A stretch of DNA of 64,000 nt. Origin: Chitinophaga sedimenti. GTDB lineage: Bacteria > Bacteroidota > Bacteroidia > Chitinophagales > Chitinophagaceae. Positions within the stretch are counted from its first letter, which is position 1; every line of letters starts with the position of its first letter. Location of the stretch: assembly GCF_023156195.1 (NCBI RefSeq), contig NZ_JAKUKA010000001.1, forward strand, positions 2,170,001 through 2,234,000. The letters are read 5' to 3'. Positions 9,583 to 46,849 of the stretch are shown here, piece after piece. The notes beneath the pieces are model-generated. The model was not told the origin of the DNA. It saw only the letters and a list, made by a program, of their open reading frames with translations, and made no database searches. The position numbers and the translations under genes are program-made.

Positions 9583-10508
9583 ATGAAAAACACATTTTTC
9601 CGTAAACCCCTGGTAGTAGCGATCACCTTTCTTGTTGCAGCAACAGCCTGTACCAAGCAGGGCGACGTACTGCCAGCAAAACTGAACAGCGAAGATGGAA
9701 AGAGTTCCGTCAACAAACTGTTATCGTCGTATACCATCGACTTTGAAGGAATCAGCAGCACGTACATGGCCGGCAACACCTCCTATGGCGACAACTGTTA
9801 TTCTACCTGGGGCGGCACCCAGATTGCGCCCTATGTACATACCCCAACCAACCTCCGGTTCGCCATCAAAGGCGCCGGTGGCAGTTCCCCGGTTGAATTC
9901 TGGGACGGTGGTTTTGTAGTGTCTGACTGGAACTATAAGGCCAATATTCCGGGCACCAGCGGTGACTGGTGGTACTCCTACTTGAACCAATGCAGCGTTT
10001 ATTCCGGCACCAGCGGCGCTAAAAACGGCGGTGCAGATGGCAGCAGCAACTTTGCCGTCATGTTTGGTTACGTAGATGACTACAACTACACCTATGCCAC
10101 CCGCCCAACACTTGATTTTACGTCGGGCAGCGGGGAGATCTCCGGTATGAAAGTATGCCTCTCTTCGTACACCTACGGGGTGATCATGAATGGTAACTCC
10201 TTCGGCAGTATCGGCAGCGGTACCCCATTGTCCGCCGTGCAGGGAGGAAACGGCTTCTTAACCTTACAGGCATATGGTTTCAACGGCAGCACGCCTACGA
10301 ATGGCGGTCTCCCCGTAGAAATCGACCTGGCCAGGTACCTTGGCGGCTCCGCAGTTGCGGGTCCTTTAACCTCTGGACTTATTTCGATTTATCTGCTTTA
10401 GGAACGGTTACCCGTGTTGAGTTCAACATCTCCGGTAACGACGCCGGCGACTACGGCCTTAATACACCCGCTTACGTGTGTATCGACGACGTGGAAGTAG
10501 CGTTATAG
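9583..10508 (+). CDS. DUF4465 lipoprotein (one frameshift near the 3' end)
   Basis: Signal lipoprotein (VAATACTKQ) followed by the DUF4465 fold: YTIDFEG, WDGGFVVSDWNYK, FAVMFGYVD. As read it stops at 10401. One extra base in the run 10363-10367 gives FNLWTYFDLSALGTVTRVEF and the typical ending VCIDDVEVAL with stop 10506-10508. DUF4465 proteins recur beside B12-type TonB receptors in Bacteroidota, so a surface role in cobalamin capture is inferred. The start at 9583 is chosen because a lipoprotein signal begins there. Confidence 0.78.
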
Positions 10509-10550
10509 TCAACATGCCCGGCTTTTTTAAAACATCATCAATCCGATAAA

Positions 10551-12068
10551 ATGAATATTTCATACAAACGCCTCGCTTACCTCACTTGTATAGCTCTATT
10601 GGTCACCGCCTGCGGAAAAAGGACGCCGAACTGCCGGAACCCGCACCTGTTATTGCCGGTGTTGAAGCCGAATATTATGTAGTGGTAAAAGAGGTCCTGC
10701 AACTGAAACCTGCTGTTGAAAATCGCGTAGACTCCATCGTATGGACACTGGACGGCAAAAGAGTAGCCAACGCCCCGGAATACGCCTTTGCCGCACCTGC
10801 CACGCCAGGCAGCTACCACCTCGTGATCTTGGCCTATAACAAAGGCAATATTGCTCAAAAAGTAATACAGATCACCACCGGTCAATACATCAACTGGTCG
10901 GCCACCACCAATACGGTCCTGAAGATTAACGCTTCATCGAAATTTGCGAATACCACCGGCATCAGTTGGGAAATGGTGTCGGCGCCATCTACGCTGTACC
11001 GGTTAGCGGATTCCAGTTCTTTCGCCCTGTTCACCACCGTAGAAAAAGGCACCTACAAACTGAAAGTCTACGCCGGCAACCTGGTAGATACGCTGCTGGT
11101 GACCGTGCGCCAGCCCGAAAAGGCCGCATCTCCTTACATCTCCCAGGTATTTGATTACCTGCCCGCCCCCGGCCAGTTTGTAAACGAACTGCCTAAGTAT
11201 GTGGCGGGAGATACCCGCGAAACCATGATCGCTAAAGTGACGAAAGACCTGGTAGGCGAAGACGCTAATACCATTACTTTAGGTGGATGGGGCGGCTACG
11301 TCGTGATCGGGTTCGATCACACCATCGCCAACATTGCCGGCCGCCGCGACTTCCGCATTCACGGCAACGCCTTTGGCGCAACCGCCAACCCACGCCCTAA
11401 TGCACCCTTTGGTGGCAGCTGTGAGCCTGGCATCGTGATGGTAGCGTACGATAAAAACAAAAACGGACAACCGGACGAAGATGAGTGGTATGAAATTAAA
11501 GGCAGCGCCAATTTCCGCAGAAGGCGAAGCCTGGTACGCGGCCGCTGTTGCCGTTAAAAACGATGTGCGCACGTTCCGTAATTACGAAATGACGTATCAC
11601 CGTCCCACAACGGAAACGCCAGACGGTACTCCTGAAAACAGTGTAAGCATTAAAGATTATATCAGGTGGAGCGACAACCAGGGGCAGGAAGGCTTTAAAA
11701 TGAAAAACACTTTCCACACGCAAACCTACTACCCTGCCTGGATCACCGATTCAAAAATCACCTATAAAGGCATCCGCCTCGCCAGGAATGGCATTGAAGA
11801 AAGCGGATCGGGTAGCTACTATGTACTGTACGGATTTAAATACGGGTATGTAGACAACTATCCTAACGCACACGACAACGCGGGCATCGACATCGACTGG
11901 GCGATCGATAAAAACGGTAATAAAGTTAACCTGCCCGGTATCGATTTTGTGAAAGTGTATAATGGCGTAGACCAGGAAAATGGCTGGCTGGGCGAAGCCT
12001 CCACAGAAATGAGTCGCGGCGAAGACCTGCACCTGCTTGGACTTAATATTCCGACGATCATTCCATAA
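10551..12068 (+). CDS. PKD-domain surface lipoprotein in the B12 locus (paralogue 2; two indels)
   Basis: It starts at ATG 10551 with signal peptide and lipobox (LLVTAC). One A must be added at 10616-10620 to give CGKKDAELPEPAP. Near 11505-11515 one base seems to be extra (EIKGSA then AEGEAWYAAAVAV), the opposite sign to almost every other indel here. It shares YLPAPGQ, GGWGGYVVIGFDHT, VAYDKNKNGQPDEDEWYEIKG and LPGIDFVKVYNG with the gene at 8069, so the two are paralogues. The function is inferred to be ligand capture at the surface within the B12 locus. Confidence 0.75.
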
Positions 12069-28393: not shown

Positions 28394-28846
28394 ATGAGTG
28401 AGAATGAAAAAGTGCGTACTGTACATCTGTACAGCATAAAAGACACGCCCTGCACTGTAACCGCCCTTAACACAAAGGTAAAAGCCGGCTTCCCTTCACC
28501 GGCTGCTGACTACCTCGAAGAAGACATCAACCTTGCGGAGCATCTGCGCCTTACGTCACCCAATATGTACCTTATGCAGGTCGATGGGGACTCCATGGCG
28601 GACGCCTACCTGCCGCACGGTTCCTACATCGTGGTAGAAAGAGGACGAAAGGCGCATTCACAGGAAATAGTTGTTGCCGTGTACAATGGCGGCTTTACCG
28701 TAAAACGATTTGTGAAATCGGCCTCCGGTTACCTGCTGTACTCCGCAAATGCGATGTATGAACCCATTGTAGTGAAAGGAGATGACGAACTGGAAATATG
28801 GGGCGTTGTAACACGCGTCATCATTGACCCGAACCGTGGTGTATGA
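28394..28846 (+). CDS. umuD: UmuD-like S24 autoprotease subunit of DNA polymerase V
   Basis: 150 residues. The cleavage region [11 protein letters not shown] (A-G bond near residue 32) precedes the S24 catalytic serine in [10 protein letters not shown] (about residue 67) and the lysine in FTVKRF (about residue 105). RecA filaments are expected to trigger self-cleavage, and the processed form joins UmuC for lesion bypass. It ends four bases inside umuC (ATGA). There is no N-terminal DNA-binding domain, so this is UmuD rather than LexA. Confidence 0.92.
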
Positions 28847-30105
28847 TTGCCCTTGTAGACTGCAATAACTTCTACGCCAGTTGCGAACGACTGTTCGATC
28901 CACGCTTAAAAGGGAAACCAGTAGTGGTGCTCAGCAATAACGACGGATGTGTGATCGCACGGTCTGACGAAGCCAAAGCGCTCGGTATAGAAATGGGGAC
29001 ACCAGCATTCCAGGTGGAAACCTTACTCGTTACCCATGGCGTGGAGGTATTTTCCAGCAATTATACACTATACGGCAGCCTTTCTAACAGGGTGATGCGG
29101 GTGCTCGGGGAATTTACGCCATCTGTGGAACTCTACAGTATCGACGAAGCCTTCCTGGATTTCTCAGGATTTAGGCATTTCGATCTCTACCAGGTCGGGC
29201 AACAGATCAGGCATCGTGCAAAAGCCGTGGGTATCCCTGTATCCGTAGGCATGGCTCCTACCAAGACCCTTGCAAAGATGGCCAACCGTTATGCGAAAAA
29301 ACATCAACGGGAAATGGGCGTCCATGTACTGGACAGCCAGCTATTAGTGGATGAGGCATTACGGGCCACCGAGATTGGCGATGTGTGGGGCATTGGAAAA
29401 CAATACCGTCACCTCTTGTTTAAACAGGGAATTGCCACGGCATACGACTTCACCCGATTACCGGAGGCCTGGGTACTTAAGAATATGACCGTCGTCGGTC
29501 AGCGCATGTGGCGCGAGTTGCACGGGATTCCCTGCATCGACTTGGAAGAACTGCCAGCGGATAAGAAGAATATCAGCGTGTCCCGCTCGTTCCCAGAGCT
29601 ACTGACTGAAAAGTCAATCATCCGGGAAGCATTATCTAACTACACAGTAATGGCCGCTAAAAAACTGCGGGCGCAGGAAAGTTGCACACGCACCATGTCC
29701 GTCTTCCTTCAAACCAACAACTTCCGTACAAAGGATCCGCAGTATTTTAAGTCTGTGAACGTCCAACTACCAGTGCCTACCAGCAATACGGCGGAGCTGC
29801 TCCACTACGCCGCTTATGGGTTGGACAGGATATGGCGGGATGGATATCGCTTCAAAAAAGTGGGGGTTATTTTACACGACCTGCAACCGGGCAACCAGGT
29901 GCAGGCAGGATTGTTCGATAACGCGGACCGGCCTAAATCCGATACGTTGATGAAGGCCTTGGACCTGATCAATAGTAGATTTGGCGGAAAGCAGGTGGTA
30001 AAGTTTGCGGCCCAAGGCACCAGCAGAAAGTGGAAATTAAAGCAGGAACGCCTTTCGCCGTTTTATACTACGCGTATCAGCGACGTATTAAAAATTACGA
30101 TATAG
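28843..30105 (+). CDS. umuC: UmuC-type Y-family DNA polymerase (error-prone translesion)
   Basis: 420 residues and intact. Family motifs: [16 protein letters not shown] (first acidic residue), [26 protein letters not shown] (catalytic DE), [19 protein letters not shown], the helix-hairpin region [15 protein letters not shown], and a little-finger domain to the end. It forms polymerase V with the overlapping UmuD gene product. SOS control is inferred from the palindrome ahead of umuD. Confidence 0.95.
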
Positions 30106-31097: not shown

Positions 31098-32075
31098 TTA
31101 TCCCATCACATTAGCGCGTGAACGAACGTCCTGCTCCAACACAGCCTTTAAATCATCTTCCGACGGTAATACCAGACTGTAACTGGATGCGAATAAATGC
31201 TTACTTTCTTCCAGCACACTGTACTTTACAATGGTCTGGTCTTTTTCTTTACACAGGATGATGCCGATGGTCGGCTGATCATCCGGGCGTCGCTTTAAAT
31301 CCTCGAACATCCGCACATACATGTCCATCTGCCCGATATCCTGGTGCGTGAGTTCCGTTACTTTCAGATCGATGAGTACGAAACACTTCAGGATATAGTG
31401 ATAAAAAACGAGATCGATATAAAACTGTTTCGTTTCTGTTTTGATACGGTACTGGCGGGCCACGAAACAAAAGCCGGTACCGAGTTCGAGCAAAAAAGAC
31501 TGGATATTCGCAATGATAGCTGACTCGATATCGCTTTCTGAATAAATGGCGGGGTCGTCCAGCCCGAGAAATTCCAGTATATACGGATCTCTCACTATGT
31601 CTTCCGGCGCTCCTGGTTCGGCTGGCAAACTTCCAGCTACTAATAACCGCTCAAAATGCTTTGTGGAAATGTTTCTTTCCAGCTGCCTCGAGCTCCGGGA
31701 GTTATCTACGGCGGCACGCGCGTAATACGCACGTGCGGTACCATCGTCCACGCGAAGCAGTATACGGTAATGCGTCCAACTTAATTCGGGACGCAGTGCG
31801 TCCCGAAATGGAAACGCCTGATAAAACTGGCGGATACGGCGAAGCTCTCGTTCATCGAATCCTTTACCGAATGCTTTTGTCAGCTGTTCGGCGAGCTGCT
31901 GCAACAAGGCGGCTCCATAATCGGCCCGGTCTGCACCCTTCTGCTCCTCCTCCACTATCCGCTTGCCAATTCCCCAGTAGGCGTGCACCATGGCCACATT
32001 TACCGCGCGACACGCAGCGTTACGGGCAGTATGGAGCAGTTGCTTTATATCTGAAACAAATGTTTTACTGAGCAT
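31098..32075 (-). CDS. YhcG/DUF1016-type PD-(D/E)XK nuclease-domain protein
   Basis: About 325 residues and intact. N-terminal DUF1016_N (VNVAMVHAYWGIGKRIVEEEQKG, SWTHYRILLRV) and C-terminal nuclease domain (LGTGFCFVARQYRI, FYIDLVFYHYILKCFVLIDLKV with the D...D-x-K core, GQMDMYVRMFED, PTIGIILCKEKD). YhcG-like proteins often lie in accessory or restriction-type regions, and the biological substrate is unsettled. ATG 32075 is preferred over TTG 32081. Confidence 0.88.
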   Translation of the reverse strand: MLSKTFVSDIKQLLHTARNAACRAVNVAMVHAYWGIGKRIVEEEQKGADRADYGAALLQQLAEQLTKAFGKGFDERELRRIRQFYQAFPFRDALRPELSWTHYRILLRVDDGTARAYYARAAVDNSRSSRQLERNISTKHFERLLVAGSLPAEPGAPEDIVRDPYILEFLGLDDPAIYSESDIESAIIANIQSFLLELGTGFCFVARQYRIKTETKQFYIDLVFYHYILKCFVLIDLKVTELTHQDIGQMDMYVRMFEDLKRRPDDQPTIGIILCKEKDQTIVKYSVLEESKHLFASSYSLVLPSEDDLKAVLEQDVRSRANVMG

Positions 32076-32099
32076 AAACAAAGAGGTTGATAAAAAATA

Positions 32100-32878: not shown

Positions 32879-34209
32879 ATGAACTATAAGAATGTTATCA
32901 GCCTAACTCAGTTATACTCAGAAAGTTTCGAAGAAATAAAAACTATCATCCAACAGGACAAAGACCAATTAATTGTGGGATCGAATGTGACTGAACTACT
33001 AGAGTATTATTCAGATCGAATTCCGTTTGAACCTGTTGAACTAGATCCTGTTAAAAGTCCCGAGATAGAATTTGACACGGAGACACGACTAATTCGCGCG
33101 GATCAAAGAGAATGGGGCTATCAAAATGAAGGAGATATCAATTATGAATATGAATTTGCCAAAGTGACTATTCCAATTAAGCGTTATGAAAAAATACATC
33201 AACTAATTAAATACCGTGGCTCGTCATTTTCCCTGAGTTGGTCGCCAAGTGAAGCCAATTGGACACCAACGAAGATCACTGTTAAAGTATATATCAAAGG
33301 TTATAATCTTCATAAAAGCGACGACCAGATTAAAAACGATATAGACTTCCAAATTCGCCAAGTCAAATTATGGATTGAGAATATAAATAATAGCATCTCG
33401 ATTGAAAATGAGAGAATACTTGCACAAATACACGAATTCATTGTCCACCGGCAGCAAAAACTTCAGAATGACAAATCGAAACACGCATCTCTTGCACGTC
33501 AAATAGATATCCCATTAAAAGTCCGAGAAGATGAAGCCACGAAGAGAATTCAACTAGATACGAAGCCGTTAGTAAAAAAATAAAGCCAACTCCCTCGGTT
33601 CGGGAGGACTATCAACTGGACAGAAAGAAAGTGCTGGATATTATACAACTATTGGATAACCAAGGACGGCAATTTGAGAAAACGCCAAAAACTTATCGTA
33701 GTTTTGGAGAGGAAGATCTAAGAAATGTGCTATTAGTATCTCTTAACGCAGTTTTTGAGGGAAAGGCTACGGGCGAGACATTTATACAAAAAGGAAAATC
33801 TGACATCTACTTGAACATAGACAAAGGCAATATACTTGTATGTGAATGTAAAATATGGGGTGGCGGAAAGAAATACGGAGAAACAATAGATCAACTTATA
33901 AGATATTTGACATGGAGACAAAACTATGGCATTATCATAACATTCATACAAAACAAAAGTTCAACCGCAATACTGAAAGCTACGGCAGATGCTATTAAGT
34001 CCCACCATAGTTACACGGGGAATTACACGTCGCTTAACCAAACTCACTTTAAATCGGATCACGTTTTACCAAATGACGACCAAAAATCAGTCGAATTCCA
34101 CCACCTTTTTATAATCTCTACTACGAATAGGGAGAAACATCAAGTTTTCTTCCATCTGGCGTCACTCAAAAACTGCGTATCGATTTTTGTTAATTTTTTG
34201 GTGAAGTGA
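32879..34209 (+). CDS. PD-(D/E)XK endonuclease-like protein, AT-rich (one frameshift)
   Basis: The repaired protein has about 443 residues. Residues 1-230 form an unrecognised alpha/beta domain. The C-terminal part carries a nuclease core: EEDLRNVLLVSL (helix with Glu), KGKSDIYLNI (Asp), LVCECKIW (E-x-K), then QLIRYLTWRQNYGIIITF. One A is missing in the run 33574-33580, and its addition gives VKKIKPTPSVREDYQL and joins the two parts. Base composition is clearly more AT-rich than its neighbours, which suggests transfer. No methylase is adjacent, so a stand-alone defence or recombination nuclease is possible. Confidence 0.7.
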
Positions 34210-42111: not shown

Positions 42112-45100
42112 CTAGCTCGTCTTCTTTACCAGAGAGGTGGAACCGATAGCTCTTTGCTCTTGGATTTTTATATTGAGAAGCGCGCAAATTTGTTGCTTCC
42201 TCTCGATCGCGACATCGTACATATGTAGATAATCAACCACGAGATTTTGTATTGTTGCAAAAGCTAGAGGATTTTTCTCGTTTTGAATCTTTAACTGTTC
42301 TAGCTGTTGATATGGAAAGCCGTCAAAATGAGCCAATTCAATCCCTAACTTAGCCAACTTATAAGAATTATTTGGATATCGTTCTATCAATTCTTGGAAA
42401 GTTTTAGACAACTTCTCACTGCCAATTGAATTAATTATATTCTTTAAAACTCCGAAAGTTGATGTAGCGCAAAGCGTGAAAATAAAATTTTTAGTAATGT
42501 TTTGTATATCTAATTTATTCAGTTTCTCGCGTATGAAACGTTTATGAATGAGTGACTTAACATGATCAACAATATCCAGTTCACTGTTCTTCACCATTTT
42601 GAAATGATGGCCCAAGGTTCTTAAGCCGAGACCAAAGGTTTCTTCAGCAAGGCGTAATTTATCCTTCCCGACGATTTCTCCCCAATTTTTCTTGGTTATC
42701 AGACCGATTATAGATATCGTCCTCATCGCTTTGGTTAGCAAAGCAAGAGTATTTATTGAGTTAACATCCTCATTTAAATCATAATCCACATCTTCTTTAC
42801 GATTTGTCTCAAACTCACGCTCAATTTTATCCAATGCCTCCTGTTCCAGGAGATCCTCATCACGTGCTTCATCAACATCAATGTTCTGATAAACCAATTC
42901 CGGCAGGGTCGATTGTAAATCATTTATAAAGTTTACATCATCTTCCAGTAGTGCCATATCATCCTCGGAAAAAATCAACTTAGCTTTCTCAAGTAGCTTC
43001 TCAATTATGTAAGGATTCTTTGACTGGTGTGTTAAAAAAAGGATTATGTTTGAATATTCATCTCTATACATTCGCTCAGCCATTCGATCTATCAACTCTT
43101 TAACGTGTGCATCGTCAATATTATCTGAAAAATACTTCGCTACAAAAAAATAGTAAATGTACTTATACGTTACCGATATGCTCCGCTCCTTTGATGGCTT
43201 GAAGATACGCCCCTTCACAAGTACATCAAAAACTGTAACAGGATTTAATTTACCAAGTGAATATTTTTCTTCGTGGTGAGCAAGAAATTTCTTAAACCCT
43301 TCAAATTCGACTGGTTGAAATCTTATCTTTTCCGAGAACAGAAAATAGCAATATTCCTTACACAAGCCCAAATAGAATCCCAAATCCTCCGGATCAGATA
43401 AGGACTTTTTCAGATAGCTCTTTATCAGCATTTCGTAATAATACGCGTGCAGATTATTTTGCGTCGATTCCTGCTGTCCTGTTTCCATAGCCTGCAGTAT
43501 CGAAAGAATATAAATCGGATAGGCAGGAATCAAGTTCTTTCCAATAATAGAAGATATGTTTTCAGAAGCGATATCAACTGCACGCAAGAACTCATTCTTC
43601 TCCCCATTATCTAAATACTCTTTGCCCAACCGGTACCATTTTATAATCATATCATTACGAAGCTTCGGGCCAAATTCAGTTAGCAAATATCTATCAAACA
43701 ATTCAAATGGATCCACTATCCGATTATGCGAGTCCGTAAAAGAATCAAACTGCATAAGCTCATCGCCACATATGATAATATATTCAAACAACTTCGCGAG
43801 ATTATGGATTAATGCTGGCTTTCCAGTGGTGTATTTAAACTTATGTAAGTCGTCAACCAAAAGAACAATCTTAGTGAAATCGATTTGATCAAAGCGACCG
43901 TCAAGCTCGTCATATTGAGCTGAGAATTGCTTTATTATAAGATGCTTCAGTTTTTCCAAAGTAACGTCTGATATTTGCGCCCCTGATATATATACAGGAA
44001 AATATCCATTATTATAGAACTTCTTATAGGCTGATTTTATAAGGGCTGTTTTGCCTGAACTATCTGCTCCATAAATAACCTTTTTTAATGATTGGACTCC
44101 ATCATCTATATGCAGCACTTCAGCCGAGTTTACATACTTGTGAAATTTTTGCTTTTTTTTTCGTTACGTATCGTAATGTCGTTTAATGTAGGCGGTATAT
44201 ATATGTCGGAAAGAAGAATTTCATCGATACTACTGTGTATGAAAGTTGCTCCAGGATTCTCCAAGTCATTCCAAAAGTCTCTTTTAACCTGAAAAAGCTT
44301 TGTTTTCAACTTCTTATTCTTTTCGATTAATTTATCCATTTGGGATTTCCTGACGTAAACACCATCATGATTGTAGCCATAATTTTGAATCGACAACTCT
44401 AAAGAATTGAGATTAACATTTATGACATTAAAGTTGCTGGCATGCATCAAATTTGAATCTTGCAGTACTCCGGCTTCAATATGAACAGTTTCATAATCCT
44501 TTCCAAGATCGGAGAATACAGAAACTCGCTCTTGGTGTTCATGGCCCGTTATTACGACATCGGACATCTTGGTAAGCGCTTCCCGGAAGACTTTAGAGTT
44601 TTCGGGGTTTGCCAATTAAAAGGGTGATGTACGATCGAAAAACTCAAAACATTATCAACATTTGGCACTGAGTCCTCAAGGTAATCAATAGGAAAACCCA
44701 TAGTACCTATGTTTTCGTGAAGCGCTGAATGCCATGCGGAATTGAAACAATTAAATTTTATGACTTTTTCACCAACCTTGAACGTTTCAATCTTGAGTAG
44801 TTTATTGTCAAAAACAATATCGCTACGATTTTTCTTAGGCTTGATAAAATCAAAAAGTTCGTCAGGGGTTCACAACATATTTCGATTGAATTTTCATCTA
44901 AATCACCGAACCCGTTCTGGGAGAAGTTACGAAGAAGAACAGACCTTATTTTCTCCTTCGACTGATCGAAATAGCAGTCATGATTTCCAGGAACGAACAC
45001 AAAAAGGGTTGCTGTTTGCAGTAATCCTCGATTAGCTTGTACAATTCGTTAAAAATTTTCTTAGCTACACTGTACTCCTCAACTTTTCCTGAAAAGGCGA

Positions 45101-45283
45101 TATCGCCGCTGACCAGTATGAAAATCGCCTCCTTCCCTATCAACTCATTTTTTACAGCTTCAAAAAGTTTGGGAATCCTACTTGAAATTACATTTTTGCG
45201 ACTTTGAGGTGTATGTCGCTGAGGTGCAGAATTGAAATTTCCATTACGTGTTTAACAAAAGGTTTATTAACAATAGTTGTCAT
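42112..45283 (-). CDS. metallophosphoesterase fused to P-loop (STAND-like) NTPase, defence candidate (five frameshifts)
   Basis: The repaired protein has about 1,058 residues. Residues 1-370 are a calcineurin-like phosphoesterase with every metal-site motif: LHLSDIHLK, LVSGDIAFSGK, VPGNHDCYFD, SIVHHPFNW, VITGHEHQE. A P-loop ATPase follows, with Walker A YGADSSGKTAL and Walker B KIVLLVDDLHKF, then a winged-helix-like and long helical C-terminus (about 600 residues). One base is missing at 45203-45205, 45001-45005, 44865-44868, 44604-44607 and in the T run 44154-44161. AT-rich and stand-alone. The layout of effector, NTPase and helical sensor matches NTPase-based phage-defence proteins. ATG 45244 is an alternative start. 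Confidence 0.75.
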
Positions 45284-45840: not shown

Positions 45841-46849
45841 ATGAAAAGACTAATCACTTACATCGCCGCGTCCCTGCTACTCCTCGGACACGCCAATGCA
45901 CAAAAACCAACAGATATGGAATATTACACCTTCCAGCTAAGCGATAAAGTCACCCGCCAGAAAGTAACCTTCACCAACCGTTACGGCATTACGCTATCCG
46001 GCGACCTGTACCTCCCCAAAAACAAAGGCACACAACTCCTAGAAGCCACGGCGATCAGCGGCCCATTCGGCGCCGTAAAAGAGCAATCCTCCGGCCTGTA
46101 CGCACAGCAAATGGCGGAACGCGGCTTTGCCACCCTCGCCTTCGACCCCTCCTTCACCGGCGAAAGTGGTGGAACGCCCCGTAATGTAGCCTCCCCGATA
46201 TCAACACGGAAGATTTCAGTGCGGCGGTTGACTTCACGGGCTTACAGGCAGCGGTAGACAGAAACCACATCGGCATTATCGGCATCTGCGGTTACGGCGG
46301 CATGGGCTTAAACGCCGCAGCCGTAGACAAACGCGTGAAAGCCGTGGCCACAACCAGCATGTACGATATGTCCCGCGTAATGGCGAAAGGACTGAACGAC
46401 AGCCAAACGCCGGAACAACGGCAGGCAGCACTGCAACAGATGAGCGAGCAGCGTTGGAAAGATGCCGCGGCTCCCGGCCCCCGCATTCTGCCCCAAACGC
46501 TCGAGGGCAATACCAACCCAGTTACAGCGGAGTTTTTCGACTATTACCGTACGCCGCGTGGCTTTCATAAAAACTCACCTAATTCAACCGGTTCTGGACA
46601 GCCACCATGCCCTTGTCTTTTATGAACATGCCCTTGCTGAGCTACATTAAGGAGATTGCCCCGAGGCCAATATTGCTGATTGCCGGGGAAGACGCGCACT
46701 CCCGCTACTTCAGCGAAGACATCTATAAAGCAGCGGCCGAACCAAAGGAGCTCATGATCATTCCAAACGCGAATCACGTGGATTTATACGACAGGATGAA
46801 CATCATTGCTTTCGATAAGCTGGAAGCGTTCTTCAGGAAGAATTTATAA
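45841..46849 (+). CDS. alpha/beta hydrolase, secreted (two frameshifts)
   Basis: Signal peptide (LITYIAASLLLLGHANAQ), then a dienelactone-hydrolase-like alpha/beta fold: ITLSGDLYLPKNKG, AISGPFGAVKEQSSGLYAQQMAERGF, LAFDPSFTGESGGTPR, nucleophile-elbow region GIIGICGYGGMGLNAA (Cys at the usual Ser position), and C-terminal RPILLIAGEDAHSR and NANHVDLYDR with Asp and His. One base is missing at the C run near 46195-46198 and in the AA near 46586. About 336 residues. The substrate is unknown. Confidence 0.85.

Follow-up and report, generated by a model that had tools for sequence, protein, structure and literature searches.

A frame-broken gene of the DS-8 anti-phage family and the exchangeable front ends of its relatives

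DS-8 is an anti-phage protein found through a machine-learning screen in Escherichia coli (DeWeirdt, Mahoney and Laub, Science 2026, PMC13092281), and its defence is reported to be abolished by a change in either of two phosphoesterase residues or in one NACHT residue. A phosphoesterase as the N-terminal effector of STAND proteins had already been proposed in 2021 (PMC8195603), so that this arrangement, which an earlier note on the DNA studied here had called unusual, was both proposed and, with DS-8, tested before. Here we describe a gene at 42112..45244 on the minus strand of a 64,000-nucleotide stretch of contig NZ_JAKUKA010000001.1 (hereafter the window), which by sequence comparison is a member of this known, validated family, and whose reading frame is broken in the assembly. 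We hold its family membership and the order of its effector with good confidence.

Layout and family assignment of the gene

Homology to intact relatives revealed a single broken gene in which a phosphoesterase is followed first by a P-loop NTPase and then by a long helical tail. When the nearest full-length intact relative, P0003 (1047 amino acids), was aligned to the window using tblastn, its residues 1-1046 were matched colinearly by six minus-strand segments, which fall in three frames and are each 42-56% identical to P0003; P0004 and P0013 served as further queries for the extent of the gene, as did the NCBIfam profile NF053861, run against the own genome. There are five junctions between the segments, the number of frameshifts noted earlier. 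By homology the gene starts at 45244 and ends at 42112, and thus, of the span 42112..45283 given previously, the end held and the start did not.

Five of the six segments (44148..45244, minus strand) make up the N-terminal calcineurin-like phosphoesterase and the first linker, while the final and longest one is a single 668-codon frame in the list of open reading frames (ORFs; 42112..44118, minus strand), holding the NTPase and the helical C-terminal tail, a putative sensor. Both GADSSGKT (Walker A, about 44070-44050) and LLVDD (Walker B, about 43854) lie within this frame. All 20 conserved positions checked were kept in the window pieces (P0003 numbering), i.e., ten in the phosphoesterase (D10, H12, D48, N89, H90, N172, H210, H211, H239 and H241), G396, G401 and K402 of Walker A, D468 of Walker B, plus six more in the NTPase and tail. 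Together with the colinear segments, these residues bear out the reading of one gene joining phosphoesterase, P-loop NTPase and helical tail. An AlphaFold model of the 668-codon product had a predicted local distance difference test score (pLDDT) of 85.3 and a predicted template modelling score (pTM) of 0.81. The gene is AT-rich, as noted before (36.4% GC over 42112-45283 versus 48.8% for the window), and the larger ORFs on both sides lie on the plus strand, which agrees with a single-gene system for which no operon partner was seen.

The earlier note had recommended a search against defence-family profiles. In this search, the 668-residue piece matched residues 252-904 of the 906 of the PADLOC model PDC-S60 at 5.5e-160 and NF053861 (DS8_antiphage) at 6.1e-158, and given these two values a chance match can be excluded. 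The gene would therefore not be entirely missed as deposited, contrary to what had been expected, since its largest piece is recognised by two profile libraries. The NF053861 search of the own genome returned five pieces covering profile positions 9-994. With the frame broken, the best single window piece reached 528 bits against the curated cut-off of 790 bits, and the scores of five pieces, which overlap slightly, add up to 808.8, while P0003 scored 917 bits. Among the nine intact relatives scanned, five passed the cut-off, P0003 included, and P0020, P0034, P0029 and P0021 fell below it. A Pfam scan matched Metallophos on intact P0003 and found no Metallophos match on the separate short window pieces; similarly, nSTAND_NTPase4 matched both, exceeding its curated cut-off in P0003 and falling short of it in the window piece.

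The comparison with AVAST made earlier did not hold: in four window pieces scanned with PADLOC at E values up to 1, no Avs model matched, and the only matches were PDC-S60, AbiLi, PDC-S10 and PDC-M16A. A new protein class was likewise ruled out, as NCBIfam and PADLOC models exist and DS-8 has been published. Our literature search located no paper on PDC-S60 by name, nor one on metallophosphoesterase-NACHT phage effectors, on calcineurin-CE phosphoesterases with STAND or on embedded PADLOC candidates. None of the titles listed for broader topics concerned this family, and the DS-8 paper and PMC4140839 were the only relevant additions from a further search. At the sequence level no solved structure of the family was found, the matches being distant phosphoesterases and P-loop proteins.

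Frame breaks, distribution and proposed mechanism

The host genome assembly comprises 6.42 Mb in three contigs and is 80.5% complete. To gauge its frame errors, ORFs of two relatives were compared with 20 stretches of the own genome and with the window (at least 60% identity and at least 80% coverage). Five of the 12 conserved genes compared changed frame, eight times in 14.3 kb, and two of these five are more than 90% identical; this is a local estimate, as 11 of the 12 genes come from one stretch (L077). Mean ORF length was 239 amino acids in the 20 own stretches and 198 over the window's first 60 kb, versus 298 and 287 in the relatives. Beside the DS-8-type gene, a gene at 45841-46846 (plus strand), which from our own interpretation of its sequence we take to be alpha/beta-hydrolase-like, lies in three frames compared with its intact counterparts at L099 and L100.

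Because conserved genes and the neighbouring hydrolase are frame-broken as well, the breaks in the DS-8-type gene are probably assembly errors rather than gene decay. The alternative is a dead gene, i.e., a decaying DS-8 copy that has lost its N-terminal effector but retains an open frame for the NTPase and tail. Several observations weigh in its favour and against an intact gene: the frame changes, five in all, are grouped within the phosphoesterase part and spare the 668-codon core; relatives with only the core or a short N-terminus exist (P0023 and P0033, possibly gene fragments); and runs of at least six equal bases are no denser in the broken part, where runs of at least five are. Since the breaks are confined to the first third of the gene, decay keeps a share of the probability. 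We nevertheless consider it unlikely, as the phosphoesterase positions are intact in ten of ten cases, the broken segments show much the same identity (42-56%) as the core (52%), and frame breaks are common in the conserved genes of this assembly. That the protein is instead a housekeeping phosphoesterase unrelated to defence seems highly improbable to us. Nothing beyond the general database name "metallophosphoesterase" speaks for such a role, and the gene is AT-rich, its matches are rare among related genomes, restriction genes adjoin its relatives (see below), and the DS-8 experiments speak for defence (PMC13092281).

Among 394 genomes of the same family, the own included, four matched at E values up to 1e-100 and one passed the cut-off; the other three are the window's own genome and two that carry DUF4062 or TIR instead of the phosphoesterase. 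None of the nine other same-genus genomes in this set matched. Of 395 genomes of the class, six matched at 1e-100 and two passed the cut-off, and of 395 of the phylum, six matched at 1e-60 and four passed, G000, G620 and G631 being common to the matches of both sets. The 50,697 phage records searched contained no match at E values up to 1e-10. Seven plasmid records matched at up to 1e-20, five of them TIR versions and two matching the phosphoesterase part (one at full length). Such patchy presence would fit a mobile defence gene.

As for how the protein might act, we propose that the helical tail and the NACHT-like NTPase sense phage infection, the tail presumably binding a phage-made or phage-altered ligand, and that the NTPase would oligomerise as in NLRs. 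The N-terminal metallophosphoesterase would thereby likely be switched on and might hydrolyse a nucleotide (a nucleoside triphosphate or a cyclic nucleotide) rather than phage DNA, so that the infection is aborted. Nucleotide hydrolysis as the killing step is a reading on which we are evenly divided. It is preferred over DNA cleavage owing to the fold ranking, to the formation of AMP from ATP and ADP by an acid-sphingomyelinase-like enzyme (PMC4140839), and to the reported consumption of nicotinamide adenine dinucleotide (NAD) by DUF4062, another of the enzymes that occur on this core (PMC13174449). Alternatively, the phosphoesterase could be an SbcD/Mre11-like nuclease that, upon activation of the NTPase, cleaves the DNA of the phage or of the host, which the same considerations render rather doubtful, or it might degrade a cyclic-nucleotide signal and thereby turn another, signal-dependent defence off or on, with no direct killing. 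For the latter, an analogy to SMPDL3A is drawn in the DS-8 paper (PMC13092281); we judge it improbable, if conceivable.

Exchangeable front ends and the hsdS-hsdR slot

TIR domains consume NAD, and TIR is one of at least five N-terminal modules that we found on the NTPase-plus-tail core, the others being the phosphoesterase, DUF4062, an Mrr-like nuclease and a nucleotidyltransferase (NTase-conflict). These emerged from a protein search listing 106 proteins (the window's own piece included), for which the 7996 candidates sharing most words were scored; modules were labelled using Pfam on nine proteins and our own profiles on the wider set. A quick-method tree was built from 95 of the 106 cores, 11 with incomplete cores being dropped, and has several long branches. 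It holds 44 phosphoesterase, 30 TIR, 11 DUF4062, three nucleotidyltransferase and two Mrr cores, four unassigned ones and that of the window, and the five labels require at least six changes on it. The DUF4062 rows are nested within a fork (support 99) that also contains the window and whose remaining rows mostly carry the phosphoesterase. P0085, the sole phosphoesterase row in the TIR half, sits on a long branch and was not relied on.

In an alignment of the exchange point, a loosely shared stretch ending like [IV]xLxx[IV][FY][VI]xPxx directly precedes the NTPase (17 of 18 representatives, P0024 being left out because it does not contain the Walker pattern applied). As rows of each of the five modules contain this stretch, the front end would appear to behave as a plug-in effector. 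Module exchange is not a wholly new idea, since a closely similar range of front ends was described for bacterial TRADD-N proteins (PMC8195603). Separately, L015 carries at about 10001-11860 a core relative of 28% identity; the longest open frame of this locus has 1349 amino acids, and its start matches none of our five module profiles.

The earlier note had suggested asking whether homologues sit in defence islands, and restriction genes do adjoin several relatives, being present at eight of the 17 family loci by tblastn: type I at L011, L014, L054, L056, L103 and L106, type III at L012 and type IV at L105. None were found by tblastn at L013, L015, L016, L053, L055, L057, L102, L104 and L107, some of which are short. 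In the control, none of 52 stretches (989 kb from three same-genus genomes) had a restriction match, versus the eight of 17 family loci, a weak control in that the restriction proteins used as queries had been drawn from those same family loci, one of the control genomes is that of the window and gave no HSDR_N match, the family loci vary from 3 to 22 kb in length, and the enzyme matched at L105, at a distance of about 5 kb, is of type IV. The 64 neighbours of five DS-8 loci matched 123 families, type I restriction being foremost among the 25 listed. A second control, G1117 (64 of 104 ORFs, from eight stretches, and not clean, as it contains Cas genes), showed no type I restriction family among 25 of 57 families listed.

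At three of these loci, tblastn placed the core between hsdS and hsdR, each time with another front end: phosphoesterase at L011 (3071-6136), DUF4062 at L103 (7176-9896) and TIR at L106 (8308-10860). Among the titles listed in our literature search, none dealt with the DS-8 core in this position. If cores with phosphoesterase, TIR and DUF4062 all occupy this slot, what the receptor monitors may be the restriction enzyme itself, and such a guard function, if true, would point experimenters to the trigger. Tentatively, and with more doubt than conviction, we suggest that the DS-8 core might be a general-purpose bacterial NLR that fits at least five killing enzymes at one fixed joint, and that it may have begun by guarding, and may still often guard, type I restriction from this slot, free-standing copies having moved to other triggers.

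The window gene, whose adjacent ORFs lie on the opposite strand, is not within a type I restriction operon, whereas the relatives at L011, L103 and L106 are. The scanned window ORFs (sets of ten and nine, partly overlapping) gave no type I restriction match, and the window's whole genome gave no HSDR_N match, in an assembly about 80% complete in which other HsdR types were not searched. Accordingly, the window copy would be without such a partner, unless the partner is of another type or was missed by the assembly. Synteny with the closest relative, G1123, did not define the insertion site: among 67 ORFs in 80 kb of its contig, only a 616-residue gene closely matched the window.

Elsewhere in the window lie other candidate defence genes; the earlier note had placed the gene in an accessory region with a YhcG nuclease and a PD-(D/E)XK protein. 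A gene at 31098..32081 (minus strand) matches PADLOC PDC-S02 and PD_DExK; YhcG is the readers' presumptive label for it and not the library's. A PADLOC PDC-S54 gene at 32879..34209 (plus strand) lies in two pieces, probably through another frame break. Both are 8-11 kb from the DS-8-type gene and are candidate defence genes, not partners. At 28843-30105 (plus strand) lies what we take to be a UmuC-type DNA polymerase-like gene, with a match in ten of 39 other same-genus genomes at E values up to 1e-100.

Taken together, these results add one predicted, probably functional DS-8 copy, likely outside the group in which DS-8 was discovered, and the window gene shows that an assembly rich in frame errors can hide defence genes. 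The modular core and the PrrC-like slot of the relatives may be the points to follow.

Comparison with known systems

PrrC, the guardian of type I restriction, resembles the DS-8-core relatives at L011, L103 and L106 in its gene slot, hsdM-hsdS-prrC-hsdR (PMC3014915, PMC12707154), but it cleaves tRNA as an anticodon nuclease and its NTPase is ABC-like, and we claim no homology. In their front ends, those DS-8-core relatives that carry DUF4062 or TIR N-terminally resemble Swarozyc, a DUF4062 NADase (PMC13174449, a preprint), and the TIR-STAND proteins. These enzymes are other than a phosphoesterase, and the published description of Swarozyc includes an auxiliary domain. The bacterial TRADD-N proteins described in 2021, with TIR, nuclease, calcineurin-like phosphoesterase, nucleotidyltransferase and other front ends (PMC8195603), are a candidate match to the DS-8 core family.

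In structure comparison, SMPDL3A, purple acid phosphatase and Rv0805 share the metallophosphoesterase fold over residues 1-318 but align to this part only, without the NTPase and tail; in these searches, the absence of other families is not evidence. Two PDC-S60 models of PADLOC match P0003, the better one (906 positions) aligning from residue 315 on and thus without the phosphoesterase, and the second from residue 3, weakly (1e-43). DS-8 itself comes from E. coli, whereas the window copy is likely from another phylum, its named close homologues being of Chitinophagaceae, and is frame-broken in the assembly. Still, the likeness to DS-8 extends over the entire protein: a single polypeptide with an N-terminal metallophosphatase, a NACHT/STAND NTPase and a further C-terminal part, colinear with the whole profile.
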